From Antedon bifida (lineage: Eukaryota > Echinodermata > Crinoidea > Comatulida > Antedonidae), in assembly GCA_963402885.1 (NCBI GenBank), contig OY727103.1, positions 11,868,085 through 11,932,084 on the forward strand: a stretch of 64,000 nucleotides of DNA, written 5' to 3'. The notes beneath the pieces were generated by a model. The model was not told where the DNA came from. It saw only the letters and a program-made list of their open reading frames with translations, and made no database searches. Position numbers and translations under genes: made by a program. This document shows positions 807 to 60,600 of the stretch, piece by piece. Every line of letters begins with the position of its first letter. Positions within the stretch are counted from its first letter, which is position 1.

Positions 807-3800
807 AATATTCATACTTAAAGCAGAACTCCAGAGGGAGCCCTTCATCCTGACATGAACTTCGTTGGCTCGTGCTTCTTTAATGTTGCGTAAAAACAGG
901 TCTTCCCATCCATATAACTTTATTAATTTGATTCCTTGTAACATTTCGTTGATCCTCTTCAAACGTTCATCAGAATTTGCCTAAAATACAACATTTAAAA
1001 GACAGACAATATTACAAGCATTTTTACTTGACAAACATAGTAAATATAAAACATATGCAAATTAGCTTACCATTATTATTTTCTGGAAACCAGCCAGTAT
1101 ACCAGCAATCACAGTCTGTAATGGCATTGTAACAAAGAACACACAAAAACCAACTAATGCAGAGTAACCCAATGTCTTGTATAAGATATAAAGTGATATA
1201 CCAAGCTGTAAAATAAACACACAAAAACCAACTAATGCAGAGTAACCCAATGTCTTGTATAAGATATAAAGTGATATACAAAGCTGCAAAATAAACATTG
1301 TTATTGTTTAGTGAAATATGCACAATTATACATTACATTAAAATGCCTGCAATGTTACATATAACCTCACTTACGAGATGAAAACATGAAGAGTATAAGA
1401 TACCATTATAAATATAGTGGTAATAGTTAGTTATAATTATAATGAATCCAGGTAAACACAGTTATTGAACCATATATAATGGATCCACTGTAATGAGTTA
1501 ATAACATCAAGTTATTAAAGACTTACCTGATAGGGAATAGACCATATATAATGGATCCACTGGAATGAGTTGAGCAAATTCATAGCATCAACAGACATCA
1601 AATTTGTTATTTGTCCCATTGTCATTGAGCCTCCAGTCATTGTCCATGTTGATAAATTCAAAGCTTTGTCATATACACTTGCCTGTCAACAAAAAGCAAG
1701 TGATTAGTCAATTAAGTTTCAACTTAGTTCATTTAGATATCATTTGATAGTCAACTGACTTACCTGAATAGCTGCCCTTAAATGAATACTTTCAATGATA
1801 ACAATTTGATAATGTGATTGTAAACACAAGGACTTCAAGACAGATGCAAAGAAAATGATAACTAGTAGAACATAACCATTTTGAAGAAAAACATCAACAG
1901 TCACATAATCCTCCCTTTGCTACAAAAAAGAATAAAATTAAATTATTTTACAGTTACATACAGTGTAGAAACATAAGGGGTGTCTCAACAGTTGTAACAA
2001 GCAATTATAGAAATTTATAAATGAATATTATAATTATTTTACTGCTTTGTGTAATCTTGTCATACTTACTGGTTTTGCTTCTAAGCCAGTAACATACAAG
2101 AGTAGGTACTTAAGGGCAATTGGACCTACAAAACTTAAAGAATCTCCACATAATTTAAGTCCACCAGCCATCCCTAATCTCAACCCAAAGACCTTGATGA
2201 ACACACGATACAGGTTAATTTCCACACCTTTCGCCAGTGCTCTCTCCTGAAAAATTGATACAATTATACTTTGCAATCGTTCCATCATCATAACTATATA
2301 CTTAATTGTTCCACATATAGAAACATACACAGAAATCTTTGGATTTTTACAAATAAATCAATAACAAATTCACAATTATGTATTCGAAAACACAATAAAT
2401 ATTCATATCATAAAACCAGGCACAAGAGTGAATACAATGGGGTTCTAGACAAATATAAAACAACCAATTTATCACTTTTCTCTAAATCTGAAAATGTTTA
2501 CAAATCTACAAATCAACAAATACCGTAATAATTATTAACTATTCTAAAATGATTTCCAATCTGACCTTTGATCTAGTTACTCGTTGAACCACCATTAATT
2601 ACAATATCAATAATGAATTGTCAATCAAAAGGGTTGTGGTCAAATCGTACTGCTTCTTAACCCTAACAATACATATTAAATATCAATCAAAAAGGTCTTT
2701 GTTAAACTATGAATGAACCTGCAGTAAGATTATACACTGTTTTCAATAAAGTTTGAAGTTCAATACCATGTAAATATATCTTGTGTGAAATGTAATCAAT
2801 CAATTCTTGCAATCAAAGCAAGAAGGTTCCAGGACAACAATATATAGTAATAAAATTGAGAAAATTAGAAAGACACTAACTCGTTCTTTTTCCAAAGCTT
2901 CTTCAAAAAGCATACGATTCTGACGTGCTTTATGTGATTTGGAGAGGACACCAAGATCTTCAAGTTCAATCGGTTCTTTGTAACCTTTACGAAATAAGCC
3001 ATTTAGCCACCAATAAGTAGCAGACGACATTAATGTACAAAATCCCTGCATAAAGTGCATGTTGGGTTTCTTCAGATCACTTGGTAGCTCATCATCAGAA
3101 CAGCAAATCTAAATAAAGAAAATCAGAAAAGATATTTATTGTTTCACAAGGGCATTCAAAATTAGTTTCAAAATTTAATTTTATTCACTACTGTGCCATC
3201 AAGGACAACGCATGAACAGACAAAACAAATATAAATACATAATAGAAAAAACAAGTTAAAAATAGCAACATTTAATTAATTTATTGAAAAATACTGTACC
3301 TTGTGTAAAATGACATATATCTCCATCAAAATGTACAATGATGTAATCACAATACTTGCTATAACCAAATCATAACGCAAAACGTTAAATTCTTTCCAGT
3401 CGTCATCAATAGCATTTTCCAATGTTAACACATCGCATGCCAGCATACATAACCAATATAGGAGCAGAAGTGATATCATGAATGGCTTGTTCCAATATTC
3501 CACATGATGGTAGTATATAAAATACATTACCATGCTGATAAAACATGCAAAAGCTGGAACATACAGATATGGTTCTGTTTCTTGTTTCTCACGTACAATA
3601 ACATCTGTAATGATACCCTCACTAACTCTTGACAACTGAAGAACTAGCAGCAACACATTCAGCAACCAACGAGGCACATGTCCAGGGAATGCAATTAGGT
3701 ATTTATGATTCAGATTTTTTAGTGCAGTGAAATTTGCCAAGACAAGTAAAATGGACGAAGCTAGTATAACAAACAAAACACTGATACCCGATGAAATCAA

Positions 3801-6300: not shown

Positions 6301-9300
6301 ATGTATTTTAAAGATCATATTGGATACAAAATGAAAGTAATATTTGTTGGAAAAGATGGAAGCGGAAAGTCGAGTGCAATTCGATGTATTACAGACAACG
6401 GTGAGAATGTACAATCAACGGTGACGACGACAAAAAATGACGTTCTTGCCAGTACGGAACTCTGGTTTCCATTTCAAACTAACGGTAAGTAACAATTATT
6501 TGAATGCTTCTAGATCCGATTTAACTTTATTTAAATTATTTATTCGTCTCATTGAATGAACACACAAGCATTATAAATAACAGGAAAAACATGAAACAAG
6601 GAACCGAAAGTCAAAAACAATACTGTAACTCATCTAGTAAAACGAGTAATTGTCGAAATTATCGTATACTAAAATTGATATTAATTTATATCTATATTTC
6701 AACCTGTGTTTATAATGACATAATAATGGATCAAAGCATAACAGAGGTCATTTTGAATTATTAACTGAAGAATTTATCACATAGGTCTATTTTTCTTCGA
6801 TCAATCACCCTGACGAAAAGACAATTCTTAACATTACCATCACATAATAATAACGATAAACGAATAAAACATCTGAGCCTGAAATTATATATAATGTGGG
6901 CCTAGTTGTTGCATCAGCTATGATAGTATTATATTACTCCTACTTAGATAAACTAATTAAATTCATGAACTATGATGGTTACAAGCTAGAAGCAGGTGTT
7001 TCACAAAATAAAAAGAGGCAAACATAACTAATGTATTATAACACTGACGCATATTATGTATACAGTATAATCAACAATAACCGATCTTTAGATTTAGACT
7101 TTCTATACTCTTTTGAGTTTTAACTCAGTTTAATATATTATGATTATTACAGATTCTGATTTTAACAACACATTTTCTGAGGAAGAGCAAATACTTTGCT
7201 TTGAATTGTGGAATTATTCCAGTAATAGTAAGGTAGTACCTTTCTTACATCATGTATATACAACATTTGCTTAACCCTGATTTTATTCTAGGCGCAGTAA
7301 CACGTAGAGATTGTGTCAACTTGGCTAAACCATGGCCTACAGTAAATTACGTAAAATTAGAAATGTATAGCTCTTATGAGTGTTGATTAAAACAAATTAG
7401 TAAATAGGTTTTTAAGAAATTACTTTTATTTTCTCCAGATATCTCGGAAATGTCAAGAATTGGCAATGTCAAACACGTGTGTTTACGTCATTATTTCGAA
7501 CATGGCGGAAGAGGATTCACTGAGCGGCATCATCGACAGTTTAAATGTTGTTCAAACTAAAGTAAATACACGGAATATTATTAAAGCATTTATCAATGGA
7601 CATAAACGAAAGTAAAATGTTAGTTCATTATTAAAAAATGATTATTGCCTTGTTTAGGCTCCTGGTGTTCCCGTGACGATTGTAGGCACTCATTCGGATG
7701 ACATGGTGCTTGATAAAAGGCAAGAATGGTTAAGTTCGTTGCAACAAGTTTTACAGAAATGTAAAGTGAAACAAGAAGAGAAAATAAAGGAAGAACTTGA
7801 ACATCTTCAGTAAGATTTCATTAGGTCAATATTATTTAGTGTTTAATAGAAATTGTTTTCTTCAGTAAGAAACAATAATGTACACGAGCTATATAACAAG
7901 TTGTTATTTCTTTTAACAGACAATTAAATGATACAAGTAATTCGATAAAATTATCAAGTTGGCGCCAGAATATGTCAGATTTACTAAAAGCTGTCTCAAA
8001 CATTCAAACTAATACGGTGTGTACAAGTATTACTACAGGAAAGGTAAACATTATTAAATGAATGATTATTTAAAAGTATCGTAATATAAACCAATGTATT
8101 CGTCGTAAAATTGAGAACATCTTTTAGTTTTATGTTGTATGTTTGAGAATTGAACACTTGGGTATTTCTCATATTAGGGGTTTGACGAACTACGGAGGGT
8201 AATCACAACAACAGCATTAAGTAATGGACGTTGGCTTAATTTTAAAAACAAGATGAATGAATCAACTATGAGTAAATTGTACAACGAACTTCATTCTTTA
8301 ACTACATTTGGAGTTATTCTATTGACGTTGGATAAGTTTAAAGATCTTGCACATACGTGTGACATACACAGTTGCAAGGACGTATCCACAACGTTGGAAA
8401 TCCTAAGAGAAATGGTAAGATTAAATGCAGGCTATTGGCAGTTCTTAAATAAATGTCGACATTAGGATTGTGGCAATAAATGTAATTATCATTTGATTAC
8501 AGGGAGTCGTGTCTTACTTGGCCAAACATGTTGATTTTCCGGGTAACACACCTTCATGTTTACCATCGATTATATGTATAAATCAGGCTTCTTTTCAAGA
8601 GGTACTACACTCCATCCATTTAGAAGATTGTACAAAGGCATTCAAATTTGAAAGTAAACGATTTTGGCCAAAATCAAGCAATGACAAACGACCGGATCCT
8701 CTCATACTCGTGAAAGCTATAGAAGAAATTCCTACTCAGGGAGTAATAAGAGAATGTTTATTTCCTTTAATTTTACAGGTACGTTATTTTCTCACAATCA
8801 TTTTTAATGTTTAATGTCAAATTATAAGTTCTTTGTGTGGTCAAAGTTTTTTCGTTATGTTTCAGAAATTCGACCTAACTGAGGAACAAATATTGCTGAT
8901 AATTGAATATTTAATCTCACTTGGAATTCTGGTTCCAAAAGAAGGTACTTATAACGATGATGAGGATATTCAATGTCTTCAACTTCCTCAATTTCCCGCT
9001 CTTTCCACTAAACGGTGCTATTATATCACCTGGATGGAAAACTTTCCAGATATTGAACCGGTAGGTAGACCTATATTCAACTTCCTCAATTTCCCGCTCT
9101 TTCCACTAAACGGTGCTATTATATCACCTGGAGGGAGAACTTTCCAGATATTGAACCAGTAGGTATATTCAACTTCCTCAATTTCCCGCTCTTTCCACTA
9201 AACGGTGCTAATCGCCTGGATGGAAAACTTTCCAGATATTGAACCAGTAGGTATATTCAACTTCCTCAATTTTCCTGGATGGAAAACTTTCGATATTGAA

Positions 9301-12300
9301 CCAGTAGGTATATTCAACTTCCTCAATTTCCCGCTCTTTCCACTAAACGGTGCTAATCGCCTGGATGGAAAACTTTCCAGATATTGAACCAGTAGGTATA
9401 TTCAACTTCCTCAATTTCCCGCTCTTTCCACTAAACGGTGCTAATCACCTGGATGGAAAACTTTCTAGATATTGAACCAATGAGGTATATTCAACTTCCT
9501 CAATTTCCCGCTCTTTCCACTAAACGGTGCTAATCGCCTGGATGGAAAACTTTACAGATATTGAACCAGTAGGTATATTCAACTTCCTCAATTTCCCGCT
9601 CTTTCCACTAAACGGTGCTAATCGCCTCGTTGGAAAACTTTCCAGATATTGAACCAGTAGGTATATTCAACTTCCTCAATTTCCCGCTCTTTCCACTAAA
9701 CGGTGCTAATCACCCGGATGGAGAACTTTCTATATATAAGCAGTAGGATATATTCAATCTTTACTTTGATAAATAAATAAATCTATACTTTTTGTTTGCA
9801 TTGTGTTTTGTATTTTATAGAGGCTTAACTGGACTTCGGCACTGTTTGATGGGGATTTAGAAATTGGCATACGTTACGTTTTTCCCTTTGGAATTCCTGA
9901 TGGCTTTGATGATCGTTTAATGTGTGTTTGTTGTCAGATGTGCTATAGAGGACGCTACAAGCACCACTGGAAACATGGGTTACTTGCTAAAATTGATCAG
10001 GTAAAATGGTTACAAATTAACTAACCATCATGTGAATGTTACTAAGAAACTTTTAAACAATTAATTTTACTGGTACTGTAATGATGACGCAACCATTCAA
10101 TCAGTAACCAAGTACCAGTATCAGTTTAAAATTCGATACTTGTTTCTGTAAATGATATTCTATTGGTTGCCATGCATTTGGTTTGCATGCCAATACAATT
10201 TCAATCATGGTCTAAGTAACTCTCTTGCAATCTTCCTGTGAGGAGATTAATTATTCTGCTCTTTCAACATATTCCATGATCTAAATAACTTAAATATCGT
10301 CAAGTGCTGTGCCGAGGATAGGCCATATTAACGGTATGTAACCAACTATAGTTTACTCTTTAACAAGGCCATATACATGGCTGCAGTCGCGTGCTCAAGT
10401 TAGTGTTTACCGACCAACCAACAGACCGACCGACCGACCAACCGACATAGTGAGCTGTAGCGTCGCGTTGCACGCGCCTAAAAACATAATGGGGGCGAAC
10501 GTCCATTTTAAAATGACTTGATATTCCAAATGAGTGTGTTGATACTGCTATTATAATTTAATTTTAAAACTTTTCATTTGAATTTAATTCATAATTTAAA
10601 TCCTTATGAAACTATAGACCTACTCTGAAAGACTCTCCTCAATTTGAATCATCACAACCTATAGTCTAAAAGTAATAATGAATTCAGATTTGAGTAACAC
10701 AAATTAAATATATTGTAGCGTGGTTTTTAGCCTACGGCAATCGAGTTATCGATCATAATTGTTGTGAGATTGCTATCTCTACAGCATACTAATCCATCTC
10801 GTGGACACAACTCAACAATCTACTTTGATTAATCCAAGCATGAATTGATAATAAACATGACAGTAGATTAACTTTGGTTTATGAGTAGTGCTTGTGTTTT
10901 ACAGGTTCTAATTCACCTGTCATCTCAGAAGCAGCAAGACTCTGATGAACACATAATAGTTTTTACAGGAAGAATAACTGTTGACGAAGAAGAAGGGGAA
11001 CGTAAGGCTACCAAAGTATTGTGGACACAACTTGCAATTGTTCTTCATCAAACGGAAATATATCTATCTCAGTGGCCAGGTCTACTGAGAAAGGTAAGCT
11101 AGATGTTTTACACATCCCCGTCTCCATTTTTTGTATTGATTTATTTGCTTTATACAATGTGCGTGATTGCGATTAGATTAGAAACCGATAACTATAGCAC
11201 ACACAATGAAGTAATGTTGAAGTACATTCATTTACTGCAGGTGTTTATACAACCTGGTCCATGGTACTTTGAAGGTGAAGCCCCCACTCAACCTATCCAT
11301 ATACCTCTCATCGATTGCTTTCATTTTTTGGATGAGGGGGAAAATTCATTGGAAATTTCAATAGACGAACAGTTGTTTAACGTAGACTTGCATGAACTAC
11401 TGCCTCGAACAGGTAATTTGTTTTTATTGCATAAATATGTTGTTCAACAGGGAATTTGATCTACTCTAAAACAATTATTCATTATAAGTTTGAATTTATT
11501 GTTCCGTAGGTCTAAATGTTGCGATATAAAAACACAATCGTGAAACAAATTGAGTATAAAAGACAAATTAATTGACAGGAGACAGCACCAATCCATATTT
11601 CGTAGAGGCCTATAATTATTAATTAACTACGTCACTAAAATATCTGTGTTTGCCTACCTTTTAACAACATTATTTCCACATAAGTACGTTCTTCTTGTTG
11701 ACCTTTACCATGCAATAATATTGATTTCAACTTGATTTTTATTACCTTGATGGAACAAAATCCAAAGTATCAACAATTTTGCTGATGATGCGGCTGCAAT
11801 TGAAAATGACATCATTCGACTGCATCCTGCTGTAAAATATAAATTATGATAAGGTTTATACAATTGTTTTCGAAAAAAAATCATCGGGGTTTCAAACAAA
11901 TTATTTTATACAATTTCTTTATCAATTAGATAATTTATGACTAAAGGACTTAGACAACTTTATTAAAATTAGGTAAAGTTCAAACTTGATAATAATGTTG
12001 TATACAAAATAATTCACAGATGATAACAAGTTGAATATTGTAGAATGGTTTGATTGGCTTTCTTCACTTGAAAGTGAATACTCACGAGATAGCAATACGC
12101 CGATAGAAACGTTTGATGTTGTTGGTGCTGGTCCCTTAATCGTGACCACAAAGATGGAACAACCCACAAAAAATAAAGGGACAGTTAAGTGGGATCTGCA
12201 AAGCGATAACACCAATGGCCATTTAAAAGAGCTCAGTAACGTAGAGTTTCAAACGGTAATTATTATTTCAATTTCATTTTCATATATTTTTTCATTTTCA

Positions 12301-13004: not shown

Positions 13005-13133
13005 TTTTAGTCGCGTGGACGCGACTCTATAGTTCACTATGTCGGTCGGTCGGTCTGTCTGTCGGTCTGTCTGTCGGTCTGTCTGGTATCACTATGCATT
13101 GTAGCACGCGACTTAATGGCTGTTGGCCTTGTT
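13005..13133 (+). mobile_element. Short dispersed element with (GTCG/GTCT)n core, copy B
   Basis: Starts TTTTTAGTCGCGTGGACGCG, continues with CTATAGTTCACTATGTCGG and a GTCG/GTCT microsatellite, and ends CACGCGACTTAATGGCTGTT then GGCCTTGTT. Both flanks of the microsatellite match copy C at 55260-56992 almost exactly, which defines the element. AGTCGCGTG and CACGCGACT form inverted ends. Confidence 0.8.
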
Positions 13134-14559: not shown

Positions 14560-17500
14560 TCATTTCTTTGTTTCATCAAAGCAAGTTTCACAAACACGAA
14601 CAGGTTTCTTAGAAGACGCTAAAACTGTGGTCTTGTTGGAACACTCGTTACAGAAGATACCTCCACAATTGCGACAATGATGCTGGAAGACATAAACAAT
14701 GCAGATACTATTAGACATTATAATACATGGTATGTGTCATAAACACATCTAATCATTTTAATGGTTGTTATAGGCAATTTGCTACCCATTCAAAGTGGCC
14801 GCAATGAACTAAATACTATTTAAGGAGAGATAACAAAATTATTTTGTATTCGTTGAATGAAGAGAAAATGATTGACTACTTGGTACTGTATGGTCAATCA
14901 TGGAGATCGTCATACACATCCTTTGTTACAATGCATATACACACATGTACATCAGACTTACTTTTCTAACTGTAACTGAGAATCCTTTGTTACAATGCAT
15001 ATACACACATGTACATCAGACTTACTTTTCTAACTGTAACTGAGAATCCTTTGTTACAATGCATATATACACATGTACATTAGACTTACTTTTCTAACTG
15101 TAACTGAGAATCCTTTGTTACAATGCATATACACACATGTACATCAGACTTACTTTTCTAACTGTAACTGAGAATCCTTTGTTACAATGCATATATACAC
15201 ATGTACATTAGACTTACTTTTCAAACTGTAACTGAGAATCCTTTGTTACAATGCATATACACATGTACATCAGACTTACTTTTCTAACTGTAACTGAGAA
15301 TCCTTTGTTACAATGCATATACACATGTACATCAGACTTACTTTTCTAACTGTAACTGAGAATCCTTTGTTACAATGCATAAACACATGTACATCAGACT
15401 TACTTTTCTAACTGTAACTGAGAATCCTTTGTTACAATGCATATATACACATGTACATTAGACTTACTTTTCTAACTGTAACTGAGAATCCTTTGTTACA
15501 ATGCATATATACACATGTACATTAGACTTACTTTTCTAACTGTAACTGAGAATCCTTTGTTACAATGCATATACACACATGTACATCAGACTTACTTTTC
15601 TAACTGTAACTGAGAATCATTTGTTACAATGCATATATACACATGTACATCAGACTTACTTTTCTAACTGTAACTGAGAATCCTTTGTTACAATGCATAT
15701 ATACACATGTACATTAGACTTACTTTTCTAACTGTAACTGAGAATCCTTTGTTACAATGCATATACACACATGTACATCAGACTTACTTTTCTAACTGTA
15801 ACTGAGAATCCTTTGTTACAATTCATACAGTTTGTTGCTTCCTCATCACTAGTCCATTTTCTTCCCATTTTTTGAGTACTTATAATTTGTAAGTTCTGAT
15901 TTTCTCTACCCAGTTCATGCATGGCTGCAGTTGCATCATCCAGTTTCCGTCGCATCTCCAGCTGTTTCGCCTGAAGACGTTCAACATCAGATTCACTTTT
16001 CAGACATCTACATGTTACACAAAATTATATTATTAAATCTAGTATCTGTAATATAAACAAAACTGAAAACAACATTCATGAAAAAAAAAAGAAAATATGT
16101 GAAATAGACAATGATTACCTTTCTAATAAAGCTCGCCTTTCATCTTGATTATTTTGTATCGTAGCTTCTTGAACTGTAGAGTATAAGAATGATTTTAAAG
16201 AAATAAAGAATCACTGCGTTAATATCATTGTGTTATCTCATTACAAATCTAAGATTACGACAAATACGTCACTTGCAACTCTTTTCTTACCTGCCATTAC
16301 ATACAGTATAAGAATGATTATAAAGAAATAAAGAATCACTGCATTAATATCATTGTGTTATCTCATTATAAATCTAAGAATATGACAAATACATCACTCT
16401 TTTTTTACCTGCCATTTCACCACGTAAATCATCATTATTCTTTTCATGTTCTTTGATGCTGATTTCTGCTTGCATTAGATCTCGTCGTAATGTTCCTAGG
16501 TTCTCATTTAGAGCTGTAATCTGAAGCTCTAAACGTTGTTCTATTTCTTCCTTTTCACACTGCAACTCTGTTCTCAATTTGGATTCAGCAGCCTTGATAC
16601 AAAAATGGAAATTAAAGACATTCGAAAGGATTATCCAACAGATTATTTTATTTATAATTAGTTTATAATTTGTTTAACTGAACTAAGCTATCTCTTGCAT
16701 ATAAAATCTTAATCTTACAAGTTTTGTTTGAAGTGCAGCAGACTCATCTCTTAGCATAGCCTGTACTTTCTTGCTAACTTCTTTCGTTTCTGTGTGATCA
16801 CCTTCACATTTTTCAAGATTTGTTTCCAAATTTTGTATAGAAGATTGTAGCTCTAGCTTTTGCTTTATTAGTAACTGTTTTGCCTCTTGAAGACTTGTAA
16901 TTTCCTATCAAATTATCATCAAATAATACATTAATTATTAAAACTTTTATAACATATACTTTCACAATTAAACCCGATTATAGAGGGGGTATGTCATGGT
17001 TCATGTAATATAACAGTGTATAACAATATTATTGTAATTGAATAATAGATTAAAAACCATCAGGCTACAGAGATAAAACATGAATAGCATTGAATGTGAG
17101 TAATCAACAATATTATTGTAATTGAATGACAGATTGAAAACCATCAAGCTAGAGATAAAACATGAATATTATTGTAATTGAATAATAGATTGAAAACCAT
17201 CAAGCTAGAGATAAAACATGAATATTATTGTAATTGAATAATAGATTGAAAACCATCAAGCTAGAGATAAAACATGAATAGCATTGAATGTGAGTAATCA
17301 ACAATATTATTGTAATTGAATAATAGATTGAAAACCATCAAGCTAGAGAGATAAAACATGAATATTATTGAACTGTGAGTATATAGCATTACAATTTACA
17401 AAAAACATACACTGATTTGTTGCCGTCTGTCTTCTTCAGCTAACGTCTTAGTTTGACTAAGTTCTTGTTCTACGCTGGCTTTAATATTCTTAAGGTCAGT

Positions 17501-29288: not shown

Positions 29289-35057
<5,769 letters not shown>

Positions 35058-41862: not shown

Positions 41863-44800
41863 TTAAAATGTTACATCAGATAGATTATTTCCATACTTTT
41901 CCATTGTATTGAGTAAAGCTACTTTTTCAACTTTCCTTGGTTCCATCTGGAAGCAGCTCGGTTCGTTATCGAATCCATGATTCACTATCATCATCTTGGG
42001 ATCTGAAAATAATAAATAAAAAACAAGACATATATTTTATATTACGATATACTTACACGACATGGGAAAACATTGCAAATACCTTACCTTTCTCTCTTAG
42101 CAGTTTCATCAAAGTTCCTAGAGGTGGAAAGGCACCTGTTATGCTTTCATGTTCATCAGAGCCTGCATCTGTAATACACATTAATAATTGAATTAGTTTG
42201 ACTATCACATTAATAGTGTTCTTTCATTAGTAATATGGAAAGCCTCTTACATAAAGTACTACCACGATCAGGGTCCTGCTCCATTGCAGTCTCTCTATTT
42301 AGATAGAATGGATACTCTAAACAGCCTGAAAATTAAAACAATACATCAGTTAAAATATGTACAGTCTAGGCTGATTCACGGTGTGATATATACAGAGTAT
42401 TATCAGTTAAAATATGTACAGTCTAGGAGGCTGATTCACGGTGTGATATATACAGAGTAGTATCAGTTAAAATATGTACAGTCTAGGAGGCTGATTCACG
42501 GTGTGATATATACAGAGTAGTATCAGTTAAAATATGTACAGTCTAGGAGGCTGATTCACGGTGTGATATATACAGAGTAGTATCAGTTAAAATATGTACA
42601 GTCTAGGCTGATTCACGGTGTGATATATACAGAGTAGTATCAGTTAAAATATGTACAGTCTAGGAGGCTGATTCACGGTGTGATATATATACAGAGTAGT
42701 ATCAGTTAAAATATGTACAGTCTAGGAGGCTGATTCACGGTGTGACGTATACAGAGTAGTATCAGTTAAAATATGTACAGTCTAGGCTGATTCACGGTGT
42801 GATATATACAGAGTAGTATCAGTTAAAATATGTACAGTCTAGGCTGATTCACGGTGCGATATATACAGAGTAGTATTTAATTACAAATATAACAATGGGT
42901 ATGTTCTTACAATCATCTTTGAGTGCGTCCTCTACATACTGCTGGGCTAAATACTTCAAAGCAAGTGGATGCTTCCACTCTTCTATAACCTCCAATGCTT
43001 CCGTCTGCAAAATACACATAGTAACATGTTAGTGCTTTTATAACATACACAAGTCTTTATACTGTGTATTGTTTTGTATCTAACCTGTGGTAACTGAATC
43101 AAGATCTCATGCTTTTGTAAGGAATGCTCTTCGTCATCTGGAAGTTCAGCAAAGAATTTTCTCACAAATTCAGGGGTTAGTTGAAGAACTCCTCGCTCTA
43201 CATATTGCAGAAATGAAGAGTAACTTAGGCAACGATAGCCAAGACAAGTAAAGCACGTCTGAAATCCTGAAAAAAACATAAACAGAATCATATTACATTA
43301 TTCAGATAAAGTAATAACGATAAATTTGTTTAGAACTAGAACTACAACCCACCTGGAGGAAATGGAAAACAAATGCTGTCTGTTGCTAAGTAACATCGTT
43401 CTAGTAAGTTGTACAAATGTTTATCCTTTTCACTCACCGGATCTTGACTGAAAAATAACATTTCTTTGTTAATATCTCCATTTACAGAATGAAAACATTA
43501 GCTGCACATGAACAGAGTCATAGAAAGTGAATAATTAATTAAAGATGTATTGTCCCTTTAAACACAAAAAAATGAAGGTCAAAATATTCTATATTTAAAT
43601 TGGCCATATCAAAGTAATATTAAAGTTATTCACTTTAAGTCGAAAATTCGAGTCAAAAACAACAATTTTACGTAATTAAAAGCTAAATTAATTTGATTAC
43701 ATTTCGTCTGGAAAATCGTCGCGAGCGAAAGTAAACAAAGATTTCAAACCACGAGTATACATTATGCAATTAGGATTGTTTACAACTCTTCACGGTTGAG
43801 AAGGTGTTTTCACACAGATCGCGAGGAAGTTTTATGAGTATGCATACATAGTAGCCAAATAAGCGCGTTGCATTATGAGATATGTTTTGATCGAAAACTT
43901 TGACTGGAAGTCAAAGTTATTTTTTTAACTAAAAAACGTCTGTATTTCAGTTAAATGATTTTTTTTTCGACTAATTTTTGGTGAAAGTTAATAACTATTA
44001 TGATACTTCAAAATGACCCACTTTTTTTCGAAATCTTTTATTTTTTATTTTTTTGGAATTTGACAAAGGGACAATACATCTTTAACCAAGTAGCAATAGT
44101 AAAAGCTCACAAGTATAAAAACTTACAATGTAATATTAGCTGGTTCAAGTTGCTGACCTTTGACACCCACAGAATTGGAAACAATTTCCAGAAGTTGTTT
44201 TGCTTGTTTCATTTGGCATTCAATGTACTCTGCAGAAAGTGACCTCATTCTGACCTTTTTGCTATAGTCAGATAAGTGCAGATCAAAATGACGAGTCAAT
44301 TTATCAATCATCTACAAAGGACAAATAAACAAATAATACAACTGTACAAGGTGATGATAGTCAGTTTGAGATTTTGTATTATTACATGTAGTTGCCAAAG
44401 TGATCTTTACTTTCATGTTTTATATCTCTCTGAAAGAAATAAAAATGTAATAATCTTACCAGTTGCTGTAGTCTATTGGAGTCCTTGTCTACATGTAATT
44501 CTGATGCATAGAATACTGAGGTAGACGTTGTGTTCAATGTCGGTGACAGCACCTTCTTAGCTGACATCATCTTTAATTTAGCAGATCGCATAAATGATAC
44601 ACCCGTCCTCGATGATGTGTCGGTGAAAGAGTTGGATCGTTCAAGCTATATCAAATACAGGTCAGAAGTCAACTGGAGAAATACGTAGAATGTAAATGAT
44701 GTAAAATAATGCTTACCTCAGTGGTTGTAGTGGCATCATCTTGCATCAAGTCAGCATTTAATACACAGAATATAAATGATGTAAAATAATACTTACCTCA

Positions 44801-47800
44801 GTGGTTGTAGTGGCATCATCATGCATCAAGTCAGCTTTTAATACACAGAATATAAATGATGTAAAATAATGCTTACCTCAGTGGTTGTAGTGGCATCATT
44901 GTGCATCAAGTCAGCTTTTAATGAACTTGTGTTAAAACGTTGCTGCTTTTGACGTCCTTTATGTAATGCCTGTACCAACTGTTGAATGCTTTCCCAAACG
45001 CCAATATTTACTCCAACTTGACTCTGTCTACGCTCCTTCCTGTCCGCCTAAACATTAATCAATTATCATTAAACTGACAAAAATGAAGATATTAAATAAC
45101 ATTAAACATCAAATTACTATAAAAATTACCATGTAACATTCACATTTTACCTTGTAAAAGAATGCATCAAAGACAGCAGGAGCTTTAGTGTAGCTAAATC
45201 TGACTGTGATTCTCTTTCCATTATTCTAAATAAATTAACAATAATTTATGAATTGAAAAATTGAATTGATAAAACTGTATACATGTTAGTTTACAGCCTG
45301 TACTATCTGCATAGAGCCTACATTGGAAATACGTACATGCTCAATTTGACCACGTAGTGCCTCGGTTGATGTGAAAGGCAGATGTTTGAGGGCGTCCTTG
45401 TTCATACTACGTCGGACAGCATTAAATGTAGAGCCAATCAGATACTCTGAAAATAGTTGTGGTATGTATTGGCTGCTGATGTCGTCACAAACCAGCTTCA
45501 TAACCTGAGAAATGATCATTAAAACATTTTGTATGTTATTCTGTTAATCAGTCAAAATTAGTCAAAGCTGGATCTTTCATGTATAGATTGAGGTAATGTA
45601 AAATAGCTAGACGTTGAGACAGTCTTATGTCAACTTACCCTTTTAGTCAAAGCTGGATCCTTCATGTGTAGATTGAGGTAATGTAAAATAGCTAGACGTT
45701 GAGACAGTCTTGTATTTTCTTTGAATGTTTGTACCAAGCCCTCTTTACTGATGCTTACTTTGAATGCTTTACCAGATTGGTTATTGAACATACAATCACC
45801 TTGAAAATTACAAATTGAAAGACATTTTAGGATTTTTATCAGGAATGCCAATAATCAATAAATTTGTATTATTTTATAACAAAAAACAAAAAGCAAATTA
45901 AAAAAAACTTAGTGAGATGAGAAAATTGAGACAATACTATTGATGGGGCGCTGTATGATTGAGTTTATGCATACATAACACAAAATGATGACGTTATACT
46001 TACCATTTAAACTAGCAGTTCTTTCTCTAACAAAGTGTGTTAGATTGTGAGAGTCTGTTAGTCCATCCGCGATTGGATGGTTTGAAACTTTATTACCATG
46101 TAATGCAATATGAAGACATGGGTTGATTTCTGGACTAACATTGACTAAATGAGACAGCTGTCCAGGAGAATAAACAAGAATGTACCCATCTGTAAACAAA
46201 GAAACTTAGTAATATACAACTAAAAACATCATTTAATACCTATTCTCATCAATAAAATATATAACAATATAAAACAAATAAAATGTATAAAATAAAACAA
46301 TATAAAATAATCACCTAAAGATGAAAAGTAAAGTTGAGCGTTTTCTGCAATTGAACGAGCAATGTCAGGAATAGTGGCGTTGATAGTTAGCCCATGATGC
46401 ACAACCAATATGGTATACTTCATGTCAACTAGTTGCCTACCAACAGTCTTCTCATTGGACCTCATTAAACCTTGTGTTTTCCAATCATCATTATCCGTAT
46501 CATCTTCTGTACTTGACATGATATGTTGCTCATCTACAGATGATTCTGATCTTGCCTTCTCAATAGGATGTTGGTAACACACACAAAGGGAACCTCCAGA
46601 TTGATGTATAACTTCCATATTAAACTGCTTATCTGTTATTAAAACATATTAATGACACTCAAAAGGCAAAATGTACAAATGTTTACAAAGATCATTTAAT
46701 TCTTACTGTACCTGATACTGTTCTGCTTGGCCCACTAAATGTATATTCTTGTCTGAAATTGAACAAAATATTTTGAAACTACACTAGTTTATCAAACTCG
46801 TCAACATACAATGGTTTAACAGGATCGCCCTCTATGGTCGGAAAAAAGAAGTCGTCTCTTATTTACTTACTGTGAACATTCCGCAGGAATTGGCAAGTCC
46901 AATTTAATTTCAAACTAAAACAATAACAATAATAAAAATCATTGATCAAGATACAATAGATGACCGACTGCTCATGTGTGTTTTTTTATTGATAATAATA
47001 GAAATAAACCAGGCAAATAAAATTAAGCGAATATGTGTAAACAACATTCTTACCATCTTGGTGAAGTTATTGTTCTTATCATGATATTCGTAACATTTGA
47101 GAACTAGGTACGGTTGAACTTCTGCAGATTTGGAATATTTACGACAAACGAAGAACAATCTTTGACAAGAAAGGTCCCATTGCGACCAGTAAAAATGTTT
47201 CACTATCTCACAAATTGTAGGCTGGCTACTTATTACCTGAAGACAATAATAAAGTTTAATTACTAATTGCTACAATGACAAAAACGTGATACTAATCATC
47301 TAAATTAAATAATACTTAATAGGCTTACCACACCCATCTGGTCCACTCTTCCAAGTGGAATGTTATATAAAGCAATTGCTATTTGAAAAAAACAAATACA
47401 TTTTATTTAAAAATGATGTCATTCTAAACTAAGTCCTACATTTTCTACTTTGGCATCAGCATGTAATAGGTGTGTCAGTCTTAACCATGGAATATACATT
47501 ATATGTGCATTGTAGAAAATGCCTTTAATTTTAATTAATTGATTTCTTTCTTACATTCTTGGTGTAGGAACAGTATAAGTTTAGACTCTTTCATGAAAGG
47601 TGAATTGCTCCATAAAAACTGAACCTGTAGTTGATTTCGCCTCGAAATATTTAGGTCAAAAATTCGATTCTGAGGTTTTATTTCTGCAAGGTATGCACAG
47701 TACCGCTCTGAAAAAGTACATAAAAATATAGTAAAAAATACTTCCTGTAACTTGAAGTTTAGAAATAGCTAATTAGTGTGGTGGGGAAAGTATAGTTGGA

Positions 47801-49424
47801 ATTGCTGCATAAAATACTTAAAGCCCCCTTCCCTACGTTTTTTAGATCTAATTTAAGATCACAAACTATATTTAATGTAAAAATAATACTATATGGTCCT
47901 ATTGCGATAACTTTTTTCGTCTTTAAACGGTTAAAAATGTGAAAAATAAGTCGATTCTAATAATTATAGCGGCCCGCTATAAATCCCAAAATGCATTGCG
48001 CGCGGATTGATATTTTTATTTTTCACCTGTAATTCGCCCACTTTTCGATCGATCGTGAGGCCAAAACAAATGGAAGACTCCTAACTTTTCAGCGAAAATA
48101 CCGGGTTTTCCCCAATTTGTATCAACGGAGTCTGGCAAAAATAGAAAGACAATTAATGCAGCAACTATACAACGTCAGGCTAGGTATATAGCTAGTGTAC
48201 GATGTTCGTACGTTACCGATGTTTACCAGCTAGGCCTACAAAACTAAGCCTAGCTAGGCTAGGCCTAAGACCGTCCACGAGAGGTCGATCGCCGCGAGCT
48301 ACTTAGGTAGTGCATTGTTTCTCACTTTTTATCATAATTTACCATAAAACGTACATTTAAGACAAGGAATGACATGGTTTAATGTTTTTAAAGTGATATA
48401 TATGTATTATTTTCAAAAAAACGTCCAAAATTGCAGGGAAGGGGTCTTTAAATATGGCATTTAATATAAATAATGTTATACCACTTTTGAATGATGATTT
48501 TGCAACAGGAGGTGATCGCTTACTGTTTGTAGACTTCACCATTGCTACATATGCCAACACACTGTGACCTTTATTTACACTGCAACTCACTATGTTCAAC
48601 TGTTTATCATGCACAAACAATGTCTGTCAAAATTAAATAATAAATAAATAATCTTTCAAACATTTCATTTATTTGCTTCACAATAAAACAAAAAGAGTAG
48701 CCCAACTAAAGGCTCCTTTAAAAAAAAAAAAAGTAAACTTCAAAATATATGAATTGTTTTAAATTGTTGTTGTGTATGTAATTTATAAACATAAAATACT
48801 AACAGAATGAGTTTGATTGGAGGGCGTATAAATGCCGACATGAGTAACCAGACAGTTGACAGAGCTCAGATGTGAGACATCATCCCAAACGTATATCACT
48901 TCCATTTCCCTTTCTTGACCAACAACTTTAACACATATCTTATTTTCGGTGAAAGCTGAATACATTTTACAAAACAGTATAATTTTATAAAGTAAATATT
49001 ATAAATATAAATTATCGGTATTATAGCGGGTCATTCCTCCAAGTCTTGGACCAAGTAGTCAAGTAAAGTAACACTGAACTTCTTTTTAAAAAAGTACTTA
49101 TCAACAAATATTTTAATTTATATTATGGGCATATCATTTATAAAAAGGTATATGAATTTATGATCACAGGCAAAATTTATTTAGCGCCCTCTTGAATCTT
49201 AGGCAGCAAGTAGTAGGCCTAGATAGAATAGGCGGCGGCCGGGTAAAGTAAGCCAAGTCCCTAGCATTCGAGGTCCAATTTTTTAGTCTAGCTAGCTGCC
49301 TGAATATGTAACAAGGTGAAGGCTTGACTAACTTACAATGATTAGCATGATGTTCACGTCTTTGCTTTTTAACATAATTTAGAATATCCCTTTCTACATC
49401 AAAACAGCAAGTGAATTTTAGCAT
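41863..49424 (-). CDS. GSAP: Gamma-secretase-activating-protein-like (GSAP)
   Basis: Ortholog-like to vertebrate GSAP, reported to modulate gamma-secretase; its native role outside vertebrates is unknown. 22 exons in phase give 989 residues (human 854): 49424-49337, 48955-48804, 48623-48524, 47707-47555, 47378-47329, 47236-47054, 46914-46871, 46752-46712, 46632-46315, 46189-46004, 45799-45639, 45504-45295, 45225-45151, 45047-44877, 44645-44460, 44311-44127, 43447-43353, 43266-43085, 43004-42911, 42325-42251, 42168-42088, 42002-41863. Family matches: QFLWSNSP, FYWSQWDLSCQRLFF, GGSLCVCYQHP, CFPFPPGFQTCFTCLG. The N-terminal half looks like a beta-propeller and the C-terminal half is helical. The start at 49424 is the only ATG before the first coding stretch. 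The 45295 and 48524 ends have alternative donors. Acidic and Ser-rich insertions in exon 46632-46315 account for part of the extra length. Confidence 0.9.
42335..42875. repeat. 54-60-bp tandem repeat, about 9 copies, in GSAP
   Basis: Unit begins TCAGTTAAAATATGTACAGT and contains GCTGATTCACGGTGTGATAT; two length variants differ by GAG. It is intronic, between GSAP exons 43004-42911 and 42325-42251. Confidence 0.95.
43543..44081. mobile_element. TTAA-flanked MITE in a GSAP intron
   Basis: A 539-bp element bounded by TTAA on both sides (43539-43542 and 44082-44085). It has inverted ends AGATGTATTGTCCCTTT on the left and its reverse complement on the right. There is no coding capacity. TTAA duplication fits piggyBac or Kolobok type non-autonomous elements. 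Confidence 0.85.
44680..44935 (-). repeat. 80-bp repeat copied from a GSAP exon end and donor, 3 copies
   Basis: CTTACCTCAGTGGTTGTAGT and the following GGCATCAT occur at 44711, 44791 and 44871. The last is the real end of exon 45047-44877 (coding NDATTTTE) and its donor. Confidence 0.93.
45555..45722 (-). repeat. 85-bp duplication of a GSAP exon end
   Basis: GTCAAAGCTGGATC and the next 70 bases occur at 45561 and 45646. The second is coding (RLAILHYLNLHMKDPALT) at the end of exon 45799-45639; the first is its copy beyond the donor. Confidence 0.85.
47822..48447. mobile_element. TTAA-flanked MITE in a GSAP intron
   Basis: A 626-bp element between TTAA repeats (47818-47821 and 48448-48451). 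The ends are inverted: AGCCCCCTTCCCTACG on the left and AGACCCCTTCCCTGCA reading in from the right. It is similar in type to the element at 43543 but not in sequence. Confidence 0.78.
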
Positions 49425-54898: not shown

Positions 54899-55320
54899 TA
54901 GATTAGTATGAACGCTATGTATTTTAGGCCTAGGCTAGGCCTACTTAGGAGGATGGCCTTACTTATTCTCAACCAATTCTCCTGCTTACTCTACACTACT
55001 AGTAAGTAGGTTAGGCATGCCTGGTTACTACTAGTAGGCCTAGCCTCGCCTTATTGTATTTGTAGGCCTAACTATATTGTACCTAGATATACATCCACAC
55101 TAACTTTCATACAGTAAAACAACTTACTTCTTTTTATTGTATGGATCCACTTGAAAATTAAAAAAAAGTTTCATTTAAAATACTGTAATTTACAACACCA
55201 CCATGCTGCACATGTTTTTTTTTTTTAATGTATACTGCCCTCTATAATATTTTTCATGATTTTTAGTCGCGTGGACGCGACTCTATAGTTCACTATGTCG
55301 GTTGGTCTGTCTGTCTGTCT

Positions 55321-56917
55321 CAGTGGTGGCGCCAGCCGGGGGGCTACGTCCCCTCGTCGGGGAGCCTAGCCCCCCCGTCGGGGAACACGGGTACTTTTTG
55401 TCAGGGAATATAATATACAGTAAAAAACGTTCTCGTTCACTTCATATAGCTTCAGCGCCTAGAAAACCACGACGTTCCATTGACCGTGAGAGTACGTCAG
55501 AGGGCTAATATGCACTTTTATGCATTCATTATTGCCAGCGATCTAACTTACTACTAAACATTAGCTAGGTACGCACTTGTCTGGCGGTATCCCTTTGTAC
55601 GAATCGTTCAACATTGGGTCGAGACGCGTGATATCATGTTTCATCCAGGGACCAAAATGTGTACTGTAGTTATTTTCCAGGCGAAGTTTACCGACGGTTA
55701 CCGAAGGGAACACGGGTACTTTTTGTCGGGGAATATAATATACAGTAAAAAGCGTTCGCGTTCACTTCGTAGCTAGCTTCAGCGCCTAGAAAACCGCAAC
55801 GTTTCATTGACCGTGAGAGTACGTCAGAGTGATATTATGCACTTTATATGCATTCATTATTGCCAGCGATCTAACTTACTACTAAACAATAGCTAGGTAC
55901 GCACTTGTCTGGCGGTATCCCTTTGTACGAATCGTTAACGTTGGGTCGAGACGCGTGATATCATGTTCCATCCAGGGACCAAAATGTGTACTGTAGTTAT
56001 TTTCCAGGCGAAGTTTACCGACGGTTACGTCGTGTACTGCGTCGACGTACGCTACACTACAGCAAAAACGAATTATGTTAATTGTTCGTATGTTCACCAA
56101 TTTTTTAATTTACAAGTAACCTTCTGTACCGTGGGGCACCTAAAATACATTTTTCATCCATTACTAAACAAAAAAACATGCCCTTTTCGCTTAGCCAACA
56201 TCTTATTATAGCTAAGTTATTACATTTTCAATATCCTGTATGTCATGAATTTCTCACCACTCGGAAGTCCAGATGGTACGCACGCATACACCTGGGAGGA
56301 ATAAACTTCTACTTCTAAAAGGTCTACGCTTGCGTTTTTTAAACCTCTAGGCTTGATGTTTCCAAAGTATAAAATGCAATTTTTTTGAAGACCTGCAGCT
56401 CTAGTTTTAAACATTTTCTTAGCTCAGCCCCAACAATAAAGCTGGTCATATTTCGAAGAACAAGAAGTACATTTTCCGGGACCTAACATCTCTATTTTTC
56501 AAACATTTCTTAGCTCAGTCACAACCATGATAGGCACTTATATATTTTGTTTCATGTTTTGAAGTATAATAAGTCCAATTTCCGGGACCTCCAACTCTAT
56601 TTTTCTAAATTTTCTTTGAACTTTTATTTTTTAAATTGAAAAATATGGATTGAAACAGTCATCGCGCATCGTTTTTTTGCACGCAGTATTTTATTTATGC
56701 ATTATAAAAAATGGAAAAAATGGCTACCCTAAATCTGATTAAAAAGACCTCAAATGACGCTAGAACGCGTTGCTTCCGGGGGCTTCGCCCCCTGGACCCC
56801 CACCGGGGGCCCTTGGCGGCCCCCTGGCCCCCAGCCTAGTGATGCTCGCTTCGCTCGCATAGCCCCCTCATCGGGGAATGTAGCCCCCGCGTCGGGAAGA
56901 TCCTGGCGCCATCCCTG
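55321..56917. mobile_element. hAT-like non-autonomous DNA transposon nested in copy C
   Basis: A 1597-bp segment with ends CAGTGGTGGCGCCAG on the left and CAGGGATGGCGCCAG reading in from the right, continuing as GC-rich inverted sequence (GGGGGCTAC). GTCTGTCT flanks both sides (55313-55320, 56918-56925) and would be an 8-bp target duplication, though it lies in a GTCT microsatellite. CAG ends and 8 bp fit the hAT superfamily. No transposase was found. Confidence 0.8.
55382..56032. repeat. About 325-bp internal tandem duplication in the hAT-like element
   Basis: The block starting GGAACACGGGTACTTTTTGT at 55382 is repeated at about 55707, with a few percent divergence, through CGAAGTTTACCGACGGTTAC. 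Both copies lie within the nested transposon. Confidence 0.9.
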
Positions 56918-57635
56918 GTCTGTCTCTGTCTGTCTGTCGGTCCGATATCACTATGCATTGTAGCACGCGACTTAATGGCTGTTGGCCTTGTTATATAAAA
57001 AGGCAAAATATTGGGGGTGGTAGGGGTTACTAAACAGATTTGCATTTAGATCCAACATTACGTCATTAGAGGTCACCGACGTCCCTAACCCAAAATGATT
57101 TTTTTCTAAGATTAACTTGTAATTCAGTTTTTAAAAAACGGATTATGAAAACTGATGAATTAAAGGTGATTCATTTAAAACATTCACAACATCCACCGAC
57201 ATATCAACATTTATTATATTACATAAATACAGATAAAATAATATGAGTATAGTTTATGAATGGGCAAAACTGTACTTGCTAGATTTCTATGAACTGTTGA
57301 ATAAATGGGTCTGGCCTACCATAGTGTTCTGTATATAGGCTACTTGACTATAATACTTTAGCAAAACCTAATTTTAATTTTCAATATTATCACGCATCCT
57401 GGCTGATAAATCGGAAATTAAGCGAATTATTTAGAAATATTAAAAATTACTGAAACTAATGCGTAAAACATACTTTATACTTGATGTTGAGACTTAGCCG
57501 TAGCTTGTGTGTCCCTCAACATGTTTCTATATATTATCTTGTCTACTATAGGGGGGGCAAACATGTGAGATTGTCTTTTTATGTTGGCTGGTATACACAG
57601 AGTATGCACTTAGTATACATGTCAAAATGTCACAT

Positions 57636-60600
57636 TCATAAGATAGGCTGCCATGAAGTCGTCTCTCCTCCTTCTTTGCTCATACTTGGCATCAAAGCGG
57701 ACCTGGTCAGACCCCAAAACTTTTCAGGCTTCAGCTTACGCTTTGTTGCGCTGAATTTCCACCCCATATGACTTGAACAGTGTCGACACTGAATTATTGT
57801 CCATGCATATCTATTAAGAAATAATAAACACAAACTGCATTGATGATGTACACTCCTGCAGTAGATTCTGTTGTTAAATTATAGATAAGTCCTACATATC
57901 TGTGCTTTATTGGATTATATTAACAATATCTATTCATTAATCAAATGTGACTTGATAATTAGGTAAGGTTTAACATGTATACACACCCTGGAAACCAGCT
58001 GTTTTCTTTTGAGGGCCGACCAATTAAGTTGAGATTTTGAGCTCGATAAAGAGTCAGTGTTTCATGAATATATCCTCCAGGGTTAACATAAGCTGCCATG
58101 GGACCATCAAGAGACATACTAGAAAATGAAACATAATACTTATTAAAAAAAAAAATTATTTATATTTTACTTTCTGTTTGTAATCATCTGAAAATGTTAA
58201 AACTTACCAAAAAACATCAGTCTTGTTTGCAATCTGGTGACCGCATCTCTTACAACATAGTAATGTACACTGAAATAAGATAGTACACATGTTAGACTAC
58301 AGTTGACACCGCATCTCTTACAACATAGTAATGTACACTGAAATAAGATACAGTACACATGTTAGACTACAGTTGACACCACCACCACTACTACTTGTTC
58401 AGCTAGACCAAAACCTACCTTCTTTAGTAAGTCAAGCTCACATCTCATTCTTTGTATTGGTGAGTTCACTTTCAGTAACAACAACCTCTGACTGTCATTA
58501 ATTGGAATATTGCTGGCAACCCAAAATGAAAAATCTACAAAAAAAAGAAACACTCAATCATCTAAATATCCATATGAAACAATGAAGTTTAAAATAATGT
58601 TAGCAAAATTATTTGTTACCTGATGGACGTTCTGGGATTGTACTAAATGTAATAGATCCCTCGTACCAGCTCCGTAACTCTTCTTTTATCAATGCCATTA
58701 GATATTCCTAATAAATGTATAAATAATGCACTATCAGCAGAATGTAAATTGAATGTTTACGACCCGACAACAATCAGTATCAACCTGACAACAATCATTA
58801 TCAACCTGACAACAATCAGTATCAACCTGACAACAATCAGTATCAACCTGACAACAATCAGTATCAACCTGACAACAATCAGCATCAACCTGACAACAAT
58901 CAGTATCAACTTGACAACAATCAGTATCAACCTGACAACAATCAGTATCAACAAGACAACAATCAGTATCAACCTGACAACAATCAGTATCAACCAGACA
59001 ACAATCAGTATCAACCTGACAACAATCAGTATCAACCAGACAACAATCAGTATCAACTTGACAACAATCATTATCAACCTGACAACAATCATTATCAACC
59101 TGACAACAATCAGTATCAACCTGACAACAATCATTATCAACCTGACAACAATCATTATCAACCAGACAACAATCATTATCAAGCAGACAATAAACTTACA
59201 GAATCGTACATCTGGTATACCCAAGGTGGCCACCATGTAAACTGTGACTCCAACAACTTATTTTTTCTCCTTCTTGAATCGAAAATAGTTTGTTTATGAG
59301 GTAAAAGCGCCCTCTGTTTGTAATATGAATTCATCCTCGCACCATGTAAAGGATCTAGAATTTCTTTGTCTGGAAGAATCTGTACCTTAGCAACCATGTT
59401 CCTAAAAACATGAATAAAATTATTGTTAACTTGTAAACGATTAAAGAATAAATTTATCAAGTTTTTTTAGAGGTCTTTATTTCATTATAAACAGCAAGAT
59501 ATTTACCCATCTGTTTGTCTACTAATATCCATAATTTTAAATCGCTGTCTTCCCATTGCTTTGATCTTCATATTTTCTAAACCATTTTCATCATTTTCTT
59601 TTACACTATAAATCTCAGCCGTTGTTCCAACTGATGCGACACCTTGCTCAAAATCTTGTCTAAAAACGCAAGAGAGTAGCGTTGTAAAAACCAATGATTG
59701 CACAAGTCAATATGAAATAAAATAATGATCATTCTTTTGTATGATAATAATTTACAAATGACAACTTACCCAACACTGACAACGCCAAATGTACGGTCCT
59801 TCTGAAGCACATGTCTCATCATTGAGATCTTTCTTGGATCAAGGAGTTGTAATGGAATGGTCTGACCAGGGATGAGTACAACATTATTGAGAGGCATCAA
59901 AGGAAGTGTCACGTAACTTTCATCATCATGGATTGTACGACCACTGTATTCTTCTAAATCATTTCCCAAATACTATATAAAAAAAGAAAATATTCATTAA
60001 TTACCTTCATATTCAGAATGCATAAATGGTGATAATCACACCTCTTTGTATTACTCTATCAGAATAGTTTTAAAGTAATGTAAAATAGCCTCAGAGAAGA
60101 CTTAAATATAAAGTATGTACTTACAGAATGAGCAGTAGGAAGTGATGGGTCAAAATTGAATTTAGCTGGTCTTTTTTTCACTTTTTCATGATCTTCAACT
60201 CCCCTAATGTTTATCCTCCAATCATTTATATTCATTTCAATATTTTCTTGAGCTTCAGGTTCTAAACAATTATTCAATATATACACTGATTATTACTTAA
60301 TTAATACTATACACACAAACAAGCTAGTATAAGTTACATAACATAATGTCTTAACGATATCCATCTTGCTGCTGCTGCTCCAGTCAAAATCGTTTCACCA
60401 CCATCCGGGGAATTCCCAGTAGATAGGCAGGGCTAGCTGGGCTACATACCCAACGAGCTGCTAGCAAGTTAGCTAGCCTGGTAATTGATTAATAATTTAG
60501 GCCTAGTCTAGACTGACTGAGGCCTAGATTCTAGGCTTAACCAGCAGACTGTATATGGAAGAGGCAAGACTTTCATCAAAATTAACCATCAATTTATATT

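Follow-up and report, generated by a model that had tools for sequence, protein, structure and literature searches.

Gene content of the window

The stretch analysed here, 64 kb of the crinoid Antedon bifida (OY727103.1, 11,868,085-11,932,084, in assembly GCA_963402885.1; hereafter the window), carries ten genes in our curated models, nine of them multi-exon, and in eight of these nine, tandem duplications that include both exon and intron sequence lie on splice junctions. An earlier note on this DNA had described these duplications as splice-junction-spanning minisatellites and was correct about the eight genes, the exception being the last gene, which matches DnaJ. The assembly holds 315,563,634 bases in 27 contigs; a position of the window at a contig end was ruled out, since it lies at 11.87-11.93 Mb of a contig of 19,350,822 bases.

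The gene models come from a small gene finder that was trained on the window, followed by correction by hand. All 113 introns counted are GT-AG (an EEA1 microexon added later brings the number of introns to 114), and the median intron length was 134 bp in the window models prior to the last small corrections. The synaptotagmin-like protein (26755-28882) is 97% identical to that of Antedon mediterranea and 81% identical to that of Anneissia japonica, GSAP is 94% identical to its A. mediterranea counterpart, and both are collinear with the A. mediterranea proteins. RUVBL1 aligns collinearly with solved RuvB-like 1 for 456 residues, including across the junction that carries an array; the CRBN model is likewise collinear with solved cereblon, and the SUR model, together with the part of SUR in the left flank, with ABCC9 and ABCC8. 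One left-flank exon (L014 1974-2079) was placed by eye. The first 500 residues of EEA1 match an Acanthaster EEA1-like protein at 36% identity, and its FYVE domain (Pfam) spans the last junction of the gene, 15788/14682. The single-exon gene matches a tRNA m1G methyltransferase.

Tandem duplications at exon boundaries

Repeats were detected with Tandem Repeats Finder (TRF) and by BLAST self-comparison of the window, which gave 65 matches of at least 40 bits and none in each of three Markov-resampled controls (at 32 bits, 1 match appeared in one of the three). TRF yielded 24 merged arrays (period 30-200, score at least 100), 13 of them junction-spanning, 7 intronic, 3 intergenic and 1 exonic, the last being a 33-bp array in frame. 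This set includes both halves of an array split by a short interspersed element (SINE)-like insert as well as transposon ends, and counts as intergenic the array at 3-558, which the left flank places inside an intron of SUR. The self-comparison adds degenerate duplications to the TRF list, and from the two sources we compiled by hand a refined set of genic loci with a period or aligned length of at least 30. Excluded from it are the transposon-end arrays 32024-32205 and 33894-34096, a transposon-end pair in the left flank (L014 3339-3517 and 3929-4081), periods below 30 bp, intergenic arrays and a degenerate copy at EEA1 19314, and the insert-split EEA1 array is counted once. In this refined set, 16 of 23 loci extend over a junction by 5 bp or more.

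The arrays announced in the earlier note, whose units measure 38 to about 125 bp and number 2 to 14, are present according to both TRF and BLAST. It had listed 17 junctions, and at 14 of these (1205, 9060, 15788, 16409, 18678, 18839, 19029, 22786, 28115, 29448, 37537, 38105, 44877 and 58269) both exon and intron sequence is duplicated; with a whole-intron duplication, which it had also reported, and a duplication at EEA1 donor 21159, which it had overlooked, these make up the 16. The remaining three did not stand. At two of them, 1527 and 45639, part of the exon recurs in the intron beyond a spacer and the splice site lies outside the copies aligned by BLAST, while at 19314 a degenerate copy is seen by eye that lacks the bases flanking the donor; TRF and BLAST both missed it, and it is not counted.

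EEA1, on the minus strand, has the most such loci. At the donor of exon 15788-16007 a 64-bp unit is present 14 times (14918-15827), with 13 decoy donors of identical 9-mer score, and at donor 16409 a unit of about 125 bp is present twice (16177-16419), with one decoy whose donor score is above that of the functional site. A 73-bp array at donor 18678 (18017-18740), interrupted by the SINE-like insert, carries 5 decoy donors. Two copies each are found of a 38-bp unit at acceptor 18839 (18834-18911, with 6 exonic bases) and of a 51-bp unit at donor 19029 (18950-19053), and the local duplication at donor 21159 (21065-21175; copies 21065-21106 and 21130-21175) was recovered by BLAST. The duplicated whole intron, reported at 21261-21431, consists of an 83-bp intron plus 5 exonic bases, 88 bp repeated twice in tandem (21260-21438). 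At acceptor 22786 a 78-bp unit is present three times (22746-22978), and the decoys at 22864 and 22942 are in frame (+26 and +52 codons).

The other genes show the same arrangement on either side of their introns. On the donor side, the Roco-like gene has about 9 units, mostly of 88 bp, at 9060 (8978-9757, plus strand; 6 decoy donors recognised), the synaptotagmin-like gene a 66-bp unit in four copies at 28115 (28099-28367, plus strand; 3 decoy donors), CCDC146 a 68-bp unit in four copies at 37537 (37516-37786, plus strand; 3 decoy donors) and GSAP an 80-bp unit in three copies at 44877 (44680-44922, minus strand; 2 decoy donors). On the acceptor side, SUR has a 78-bp unit in two copies at exon 1071-1205 (1138-1297, minus strand), with a decoy acceptor at 1283 that would add 78 bp in frame; RUVBL1 has a 66-bp unit in 7.5 copies at 29448 (29413-29908, minus strand), with 6 decoy acceptors, 5 of them intact; CCDC146 has a duplication at offset 61 with 5 exonic bases at 38105 (38005-38109, plus strand; BLAST); and CRBN has a 68-bp unit in two copies at 58269 (58240-58380, minus strand), with one decoy acceptor.

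Decoy splice sites and the functional copy

We recognised a decoy where at least 14 of 20 bases resemble the functional site. By this rule the 16 junction loci contain 48 decoys, 47 of which keep their GT or AG, so that the earlier statement that the arrays fill introns with decoy splice sites is borne out, and 31 of the 48 score as high as the functional site or higher (within 0.01). Use of a decoy is predicted to lead to a premature stop in 45 of 48 cases, the frame being kept by SUR 1283, EEA1 22864 and EEA1 22942. At the junctions that could be compared with proteins of relatives (RUVBL1, CRBN, SUR, the synaptotagmin-like protein and GSAP) there is no extra unit: solved ABCC9 aligned to SUR has no insertion at acceptor 1205, and the A. 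mediterranea GSAP and synaptotagmin-like proteins hold one copy at the array junctions, a comparison made at the protein level. The conserved reading frame points to the exon-proximal copy as the functional one, with EEA1 22786 set aside. Exon definition predicts the use of exon-proximal sites, and intron definition with introns of about 100 bp predicts the use of exon-distal copies; exon-proximal functional copies, as read from the frame, would thus agree with the former and not the latter.

Exon-derived and intron-derived parts of the units have diverged to a similar extent. In the eight junction arrays with at least 3 copies, variation among the decoys alone affects 20 of 348 exon-derived and 18 of 248 intron-derived columns (P = 0.50), and the same count including the functional copy gives 24 exon-derived and 21 intron-derived columns (P = 0.53). 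Since the two kinds of column vary alike, there is no sign of constraint on the decoys. Constraint was considered on the basis of pairwise divergence (0.021 for exon-derived against 0.047 for intron-derived parts) and was rejected when this difference vanished in the column count. Looked at for concerted evolution that spares the edge copies, as in the mirage minisatellites discussed below, the unit alignments of these eight arrays show a few fixed differences of the functional copy.

Two arrays have further features within their coding parts. The 78-bp array of EEA1 at 22746-22978 is open through its exon and intron parts, so that choice of acceptor could add 26 or 52 residues. In GSAP (44877-45047) the exon copy reads MHND, and both intronic decoys and A. 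mediterranea have D at that place, which means that the decoys may retain the older state.

Junction overlap compared with random placement

To compare the overlap with chance, we collapsed the arrays and dropped segments of unit length at random. When segments may fall anywhere in the window, 13 of 24 TRF arrays at junctions compare with 6.1 expected (P = 0.002), and when placements wholly within coding sequence are barred, 13 of 23 compare with 7.5 (P = 0.014). With placement further limited to gene bodies, 13 of 20 TRF arrays stand against 9.8 expected (P = 0.11). Under the same limits, 16 of the 23 refined loci span a junction where 11.7 would be expected (P = 0.048), and 13 do so against 10.2 if at least 10 bp is required on each side of the junction (P = 0.16). 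The 10-kb left flank, which lay outside the view of the earlier note and was added after the first of the placement tests, brings the refined set to 17 of 29 against 13.2 expected (P = 0.10), and to 14 of 29 against 11.4 under the 10-bp rule (P = 0.20).

The verdict on an excess at junctions therefore hinges on the null chosen, and what clearly departs from chance is how few arrays are wholly coding: 1 is seen against about 11.4 expected without selection. The earlier note had considered the number of junction arrays excessive even for short introns and had proposed length-matched placement as a check; that check, run on the window and left flank, leaves the overlap near its null (P 0.05-0.2), and the claim of excess is not upheld, length-matched placement accounting for most of the overlap. 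We attribute most of it to short introns together with selection against coding duplications. Arrays at junctions are not depleted relative to intronic arrays, which suggests that copying a splice site does almost no harm.

Intron growth and origin of the units

The suggestion that the arrays lengthen introns is borne out by the proportion of intronic sequence that they occupy. Surplus units account for 5,766 bp, or 21%, of the 27,193 bp of intron sequence, a count that includes arrays of 21-bp units and in which the collapse is approximate where an array enters an exon. Arrays occur in 22 of 114 introns, whose median length of 294 bp falls to about 96.5 bp when they are collapsed, similar to the median of 116 bp in the other 92 introns. 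The changes seen are the lengthening of introns that already existed and one duplication of a whole intron.

The arrays appear to have originated separately, each at its own locus, because no matches connect different arrays. We compared 31 units with the window and with sampled DNA from the flanks and elsewhere, masking matches within 1.5 kb and among six left-flank units, and obtained 8 short, weak matches away from the home locus, none of them between two arrays. A comparison of the 64-bp EEA1 array with the whole assembly returned, among the best candidates and with simple repeats skipped, a match to itself only. Hairpin-driven slippage was tried as a cause and received no general support: 12 units folded as DNA gave z values from -1.77 to +1.36, and the lowest, that of the 51-bp EEA1 unit, was equalled or bettered by 11 of 200 shuffles.

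Regional density

Locus density was measured by a common method (a TRF array of period 25-200 scoring 80 or more, or a BLAST match of at least 40 bits) that retains transposon-end arrays, at comparison sites elsewhere picked at round-number coordinates. This gives 32 loci for the 64 kb of the window, 8 for the 10-kb left flank and 1 for a right flank of equal length; elsewhere there is 1 locus in 10 kb (C16, 6.0 Mb), 5 in 40 kb (C1, 5.0 Mb) and 2 in 50 kb (C1, 12.0 Mb), the first 10 kb of C1 (5 loci) being omitted as a contig end. In this sample the loci are clustered, with 32 of 41 in 64 of 174 kb (P = 9 × 10⁻⁸, against 9 loci in 110 kb elsewhere); a test that includes the left flank took 39 of 48 loci, one array crossing the border. 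This contrast is inflated because the window was selected for the feature, which is not so of the left flank. Of the seven C1 loci, four fall by their coordinates in or nearly wholly within predicted exons, and one more overlaps the ends of such exons.

Other repeats and elements in and near the window

Two further duplications adjoin exons without including the splice site. A 31-bp piece of SUR exon 1527-1682 recurs in the adjoining intron at offset 72 (1469-1571, minus strand), and a 69-bp piece of GSAP exon 45639-45799 recurs in the intron at offset 85 (45558-45711, minus strand); in both cases the donor lies outside the aligned copies. Arrays confined to introns comprise, in EEA1 (minus strand), a 56-bp array (17022-17381) and a 59-bp unit in two copies (24324-24441); in CCDC146 (plus strand), a 21-bp array of 12 copies (38385-38636) and a 59-bp array of 11 copies (38878-39524) that nearly fills the intron between 38861 and 39539; in GSAP (minus strand), a 60-bp array of 9 copies (42345-42876); and in CRBN (minus strand), a 21-bp array of 20 copies that is open in frame (58762-59190). 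The first model of CRBN treated this last array as coding, and this was ruled out, solved cereblon having no counterpart.

Several elements of other kinds are present. Intron 1 of RUVBL1 contains an approximately 2.1-kb DNA transposon of the foldback type (32006-34116), whose inverted ends consist of 16-bp tandem units of the AAGTCGCCCC type and which is bounded on both sides by the 8-bp repeat ATTAAACG; a similarly built element, with inverted GTCAACTCGGCC-type arrays around a short core, lies in a SUR intron in the left flank (L014 3339-4081). The insert in the 73-bp array of EEA1 (18182-18423) is, as judged by eye, of the tRNA-type SINE-like kind, with A-box-like and B-box-like motifs and an A-rich tail, and its position inside the array indicates that the array predates the insertion. 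ARAGORN calls no tRNA, and Rfam at gathering scores gives no match. An element that carries TCGCGTGGACGCGACT and GTCTGTCTGTCGG motifs, at 55258-56990, seems by eye to be split by a 1.6-kb insert with a 327-bp duplication, and stretches that resemble it occur near 10385-10500 and 13018-13130. CCDC146 and GSAP are neighbours (35836-49424), as we take them to be on human chromosome 7.

Discussion

The earlier note knew of no named system of this kind, and in this it was wrong. Tandem repeats across exon-intron boundaries were described under the name mirages in the Adh3 and globin genes of amphioxus (PMC3087553), the globins concerned being BflGb6 and BflGb9 (PMC3087553, PMC3902484), and PGBD5 and troponin C are further amphioxus cases (PMC3902484). 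In the first report, RT-PCR suggested normal splicing, instability in length and in somatic cells is described, and a model of intron gain is drawn (PMC3087553). The Antedon arrays share with the amphioxus mirages boundary units on the donor or acceptor side, a similar unit size and many copies with AG/GT; a unit containing the exon-intron boundary is found at 16 loci, and AG/GT signals are retained by the 47 intact decoys. They differ in their host, a crinoid echinoderm, in their number, 16 in one 64-kb stretch, and in reaching 14 copies; here, unlike in the amphioxus work, overlap was measured against a placement null, whereas splicing, which was assessed there by RT-PCR, is here read from frames and homologues. 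The observation of the earlier note is real and well read, of an already named kind, and partly confirmed.

Other systems are related more loosely. Boundary tandem repeats alter introns in human segmental duplications (PMC2812944); there, minisatellites at boundaries change introns as they do in Antedon, but the human repeats belong to recent paralogues and often give alternative transcripts, whereas nearly all of the Antedon decoys (45 of 48) would give a premature stop. In the model of Rogers, tandem duplication of an AGGT-containing segment leads to intron gain (cited in PMC3087553). Both this model and the Antedon arrays involve duplicated splice signals, but the latter lengthen introns that are already there. 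Introners are dispersed repeats with splice sites; the Antedon units also carry splice sites, but they are locally derived and form no family in the DNA compared. We found no crinoid case of boundary minisatellites among the matches listed in the open-licence literature.

We consider it probable (about 0.8) that the arrays are mirage-type minisatellites produced by near-neutral local tandem duplication, which would leave the mRNA unchanged through use of the exon-proximal site. A local stretch of about 40-125 bp would undergo tandem duplication, possibly with short direct repeats at its ends, and some of the resulting pairs would expand further by slippage or unequal exchange. If an exon end lay within the stretch, the splice site would be copied along with it, and if the spliceosome takes the copy adjacent to the exon (the 5'-most donor or the 3'-most acceptor), the extra units would become intronic and the mRNA would stay the same. 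Selection would then tolerate junction duplications about as well as those confined to introns and would purge those wholly within coding sequence. If introns measured about 100 bp before the arrays grew, about half of the surviving gene-body duplications would have to touch a junction, near what is observed, and the outcome would be longer introns with silent decoy sites.

Among the alternatives, duplication targeted to splice junctions, for example by R-loops or breaks coupled to splicing, would produce a true excess at junctions. We regard this as unlikely: the refined set in gene bodies (P = 0.048) and the two wider placements (uniform, and with wholly coding positions barred) favour it, but the other length-matched tests (P = 0.11, 0.16, 0.10 and 0.20) do not, and 1 of the 7 left-flank arrays used spans a junction. 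Slightly less probable again is that the decoys are used, whether for alternative splicing or, as poison sites, to adjust expression by way of nonsense-mediated decay. Their intactness (47 of 48) and the three that remain in frame speak for such use, but the premature stop expected from the other 45, the lack of extra conservation in their exon-derived parts and the single copy in the GSAP and synaptotagmin-like proteins of A. mediterranea speak against it.

Because tandem arrays are prone to assembly error, inflated copy numbers or stacked regions might be suspected. The size of the contigs (315.6 Mb in 27, with one of 19.35 Mb here), which suggests long reads, the distinct variants in irregular order among the copies, and a longest array of only about 1 kb make such an artefact very improbable. 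Least credible is a mobile, introner-like family that makes introns and carries its own splice sites, to the point that we give it almost no weight: donor or acceptor sites are indeed present in the units, but none of the 31 units links two arrays, the 64-bp EEA1 array matched itself alone among the best candidates in the assembly, and the junction units consist of the local exon-intron sequence.

Several points weigh against near-neutral local duplication with exon-proximal splicing as we have described it. A 1.3-1.4-fold excess at junctions remains compatible with 23-29 loci (P 0.05-0.2). Support for short direct repeats is thin: among eight two-copy duplications, the repeated stretch is 2-5 bp longer than two units in five, exactly two units long in one and shorter than that in two, counts made without a chance control. 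The evidence for exon-proximal use consists of open frames and homologues, and within it the junction-level homology check of EEA1 covers the FYVE end, that of CCDC146 consists of remote CFAP58 chains, and the Roco-like gene, whose name is taken from the earlier note, has no Pfam match at E 0.001. The density contrast comes from a window chosen for its arrays and from just 110 kb elsewhere.

That mirages occur in an echinoderm and not in amphioxus alone suggests that they are no peculiarity of cephalochordates, and what is new relative to the known cases is their density in one region. The region also illustrates how introns lengthen by minisatellite growth. More speculatively, and with doubt outweighing confidence, a domain of at least 74 kb may be a hot spot of local tandem duplication in which about a fifth of the introns have roughly tripled in length and some fifty intact decoys seem to be passed over for the exon-proximal copy, though the ancestral introns were about 100 bp long. 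The region merits a second look for how dense its arrays are and because its decoys could serve to test splice-site choice. Arrays of almost equal splice sites, of which a single position leaves the frame open, are a ready-made test of spliceosome choice, and the sharpest cases are RUVBL1, with five intact upstream decoy acceptors, and EEA1 15788, with thirteen decoy donors of equal score. If the hot spot is real, the domain would be a natural competition assay for exon-proximal choice, that is, for exon definition, in genes with short introns, and EEA1 would be able to vary a 26-residue repeat through its choice of acceptor.

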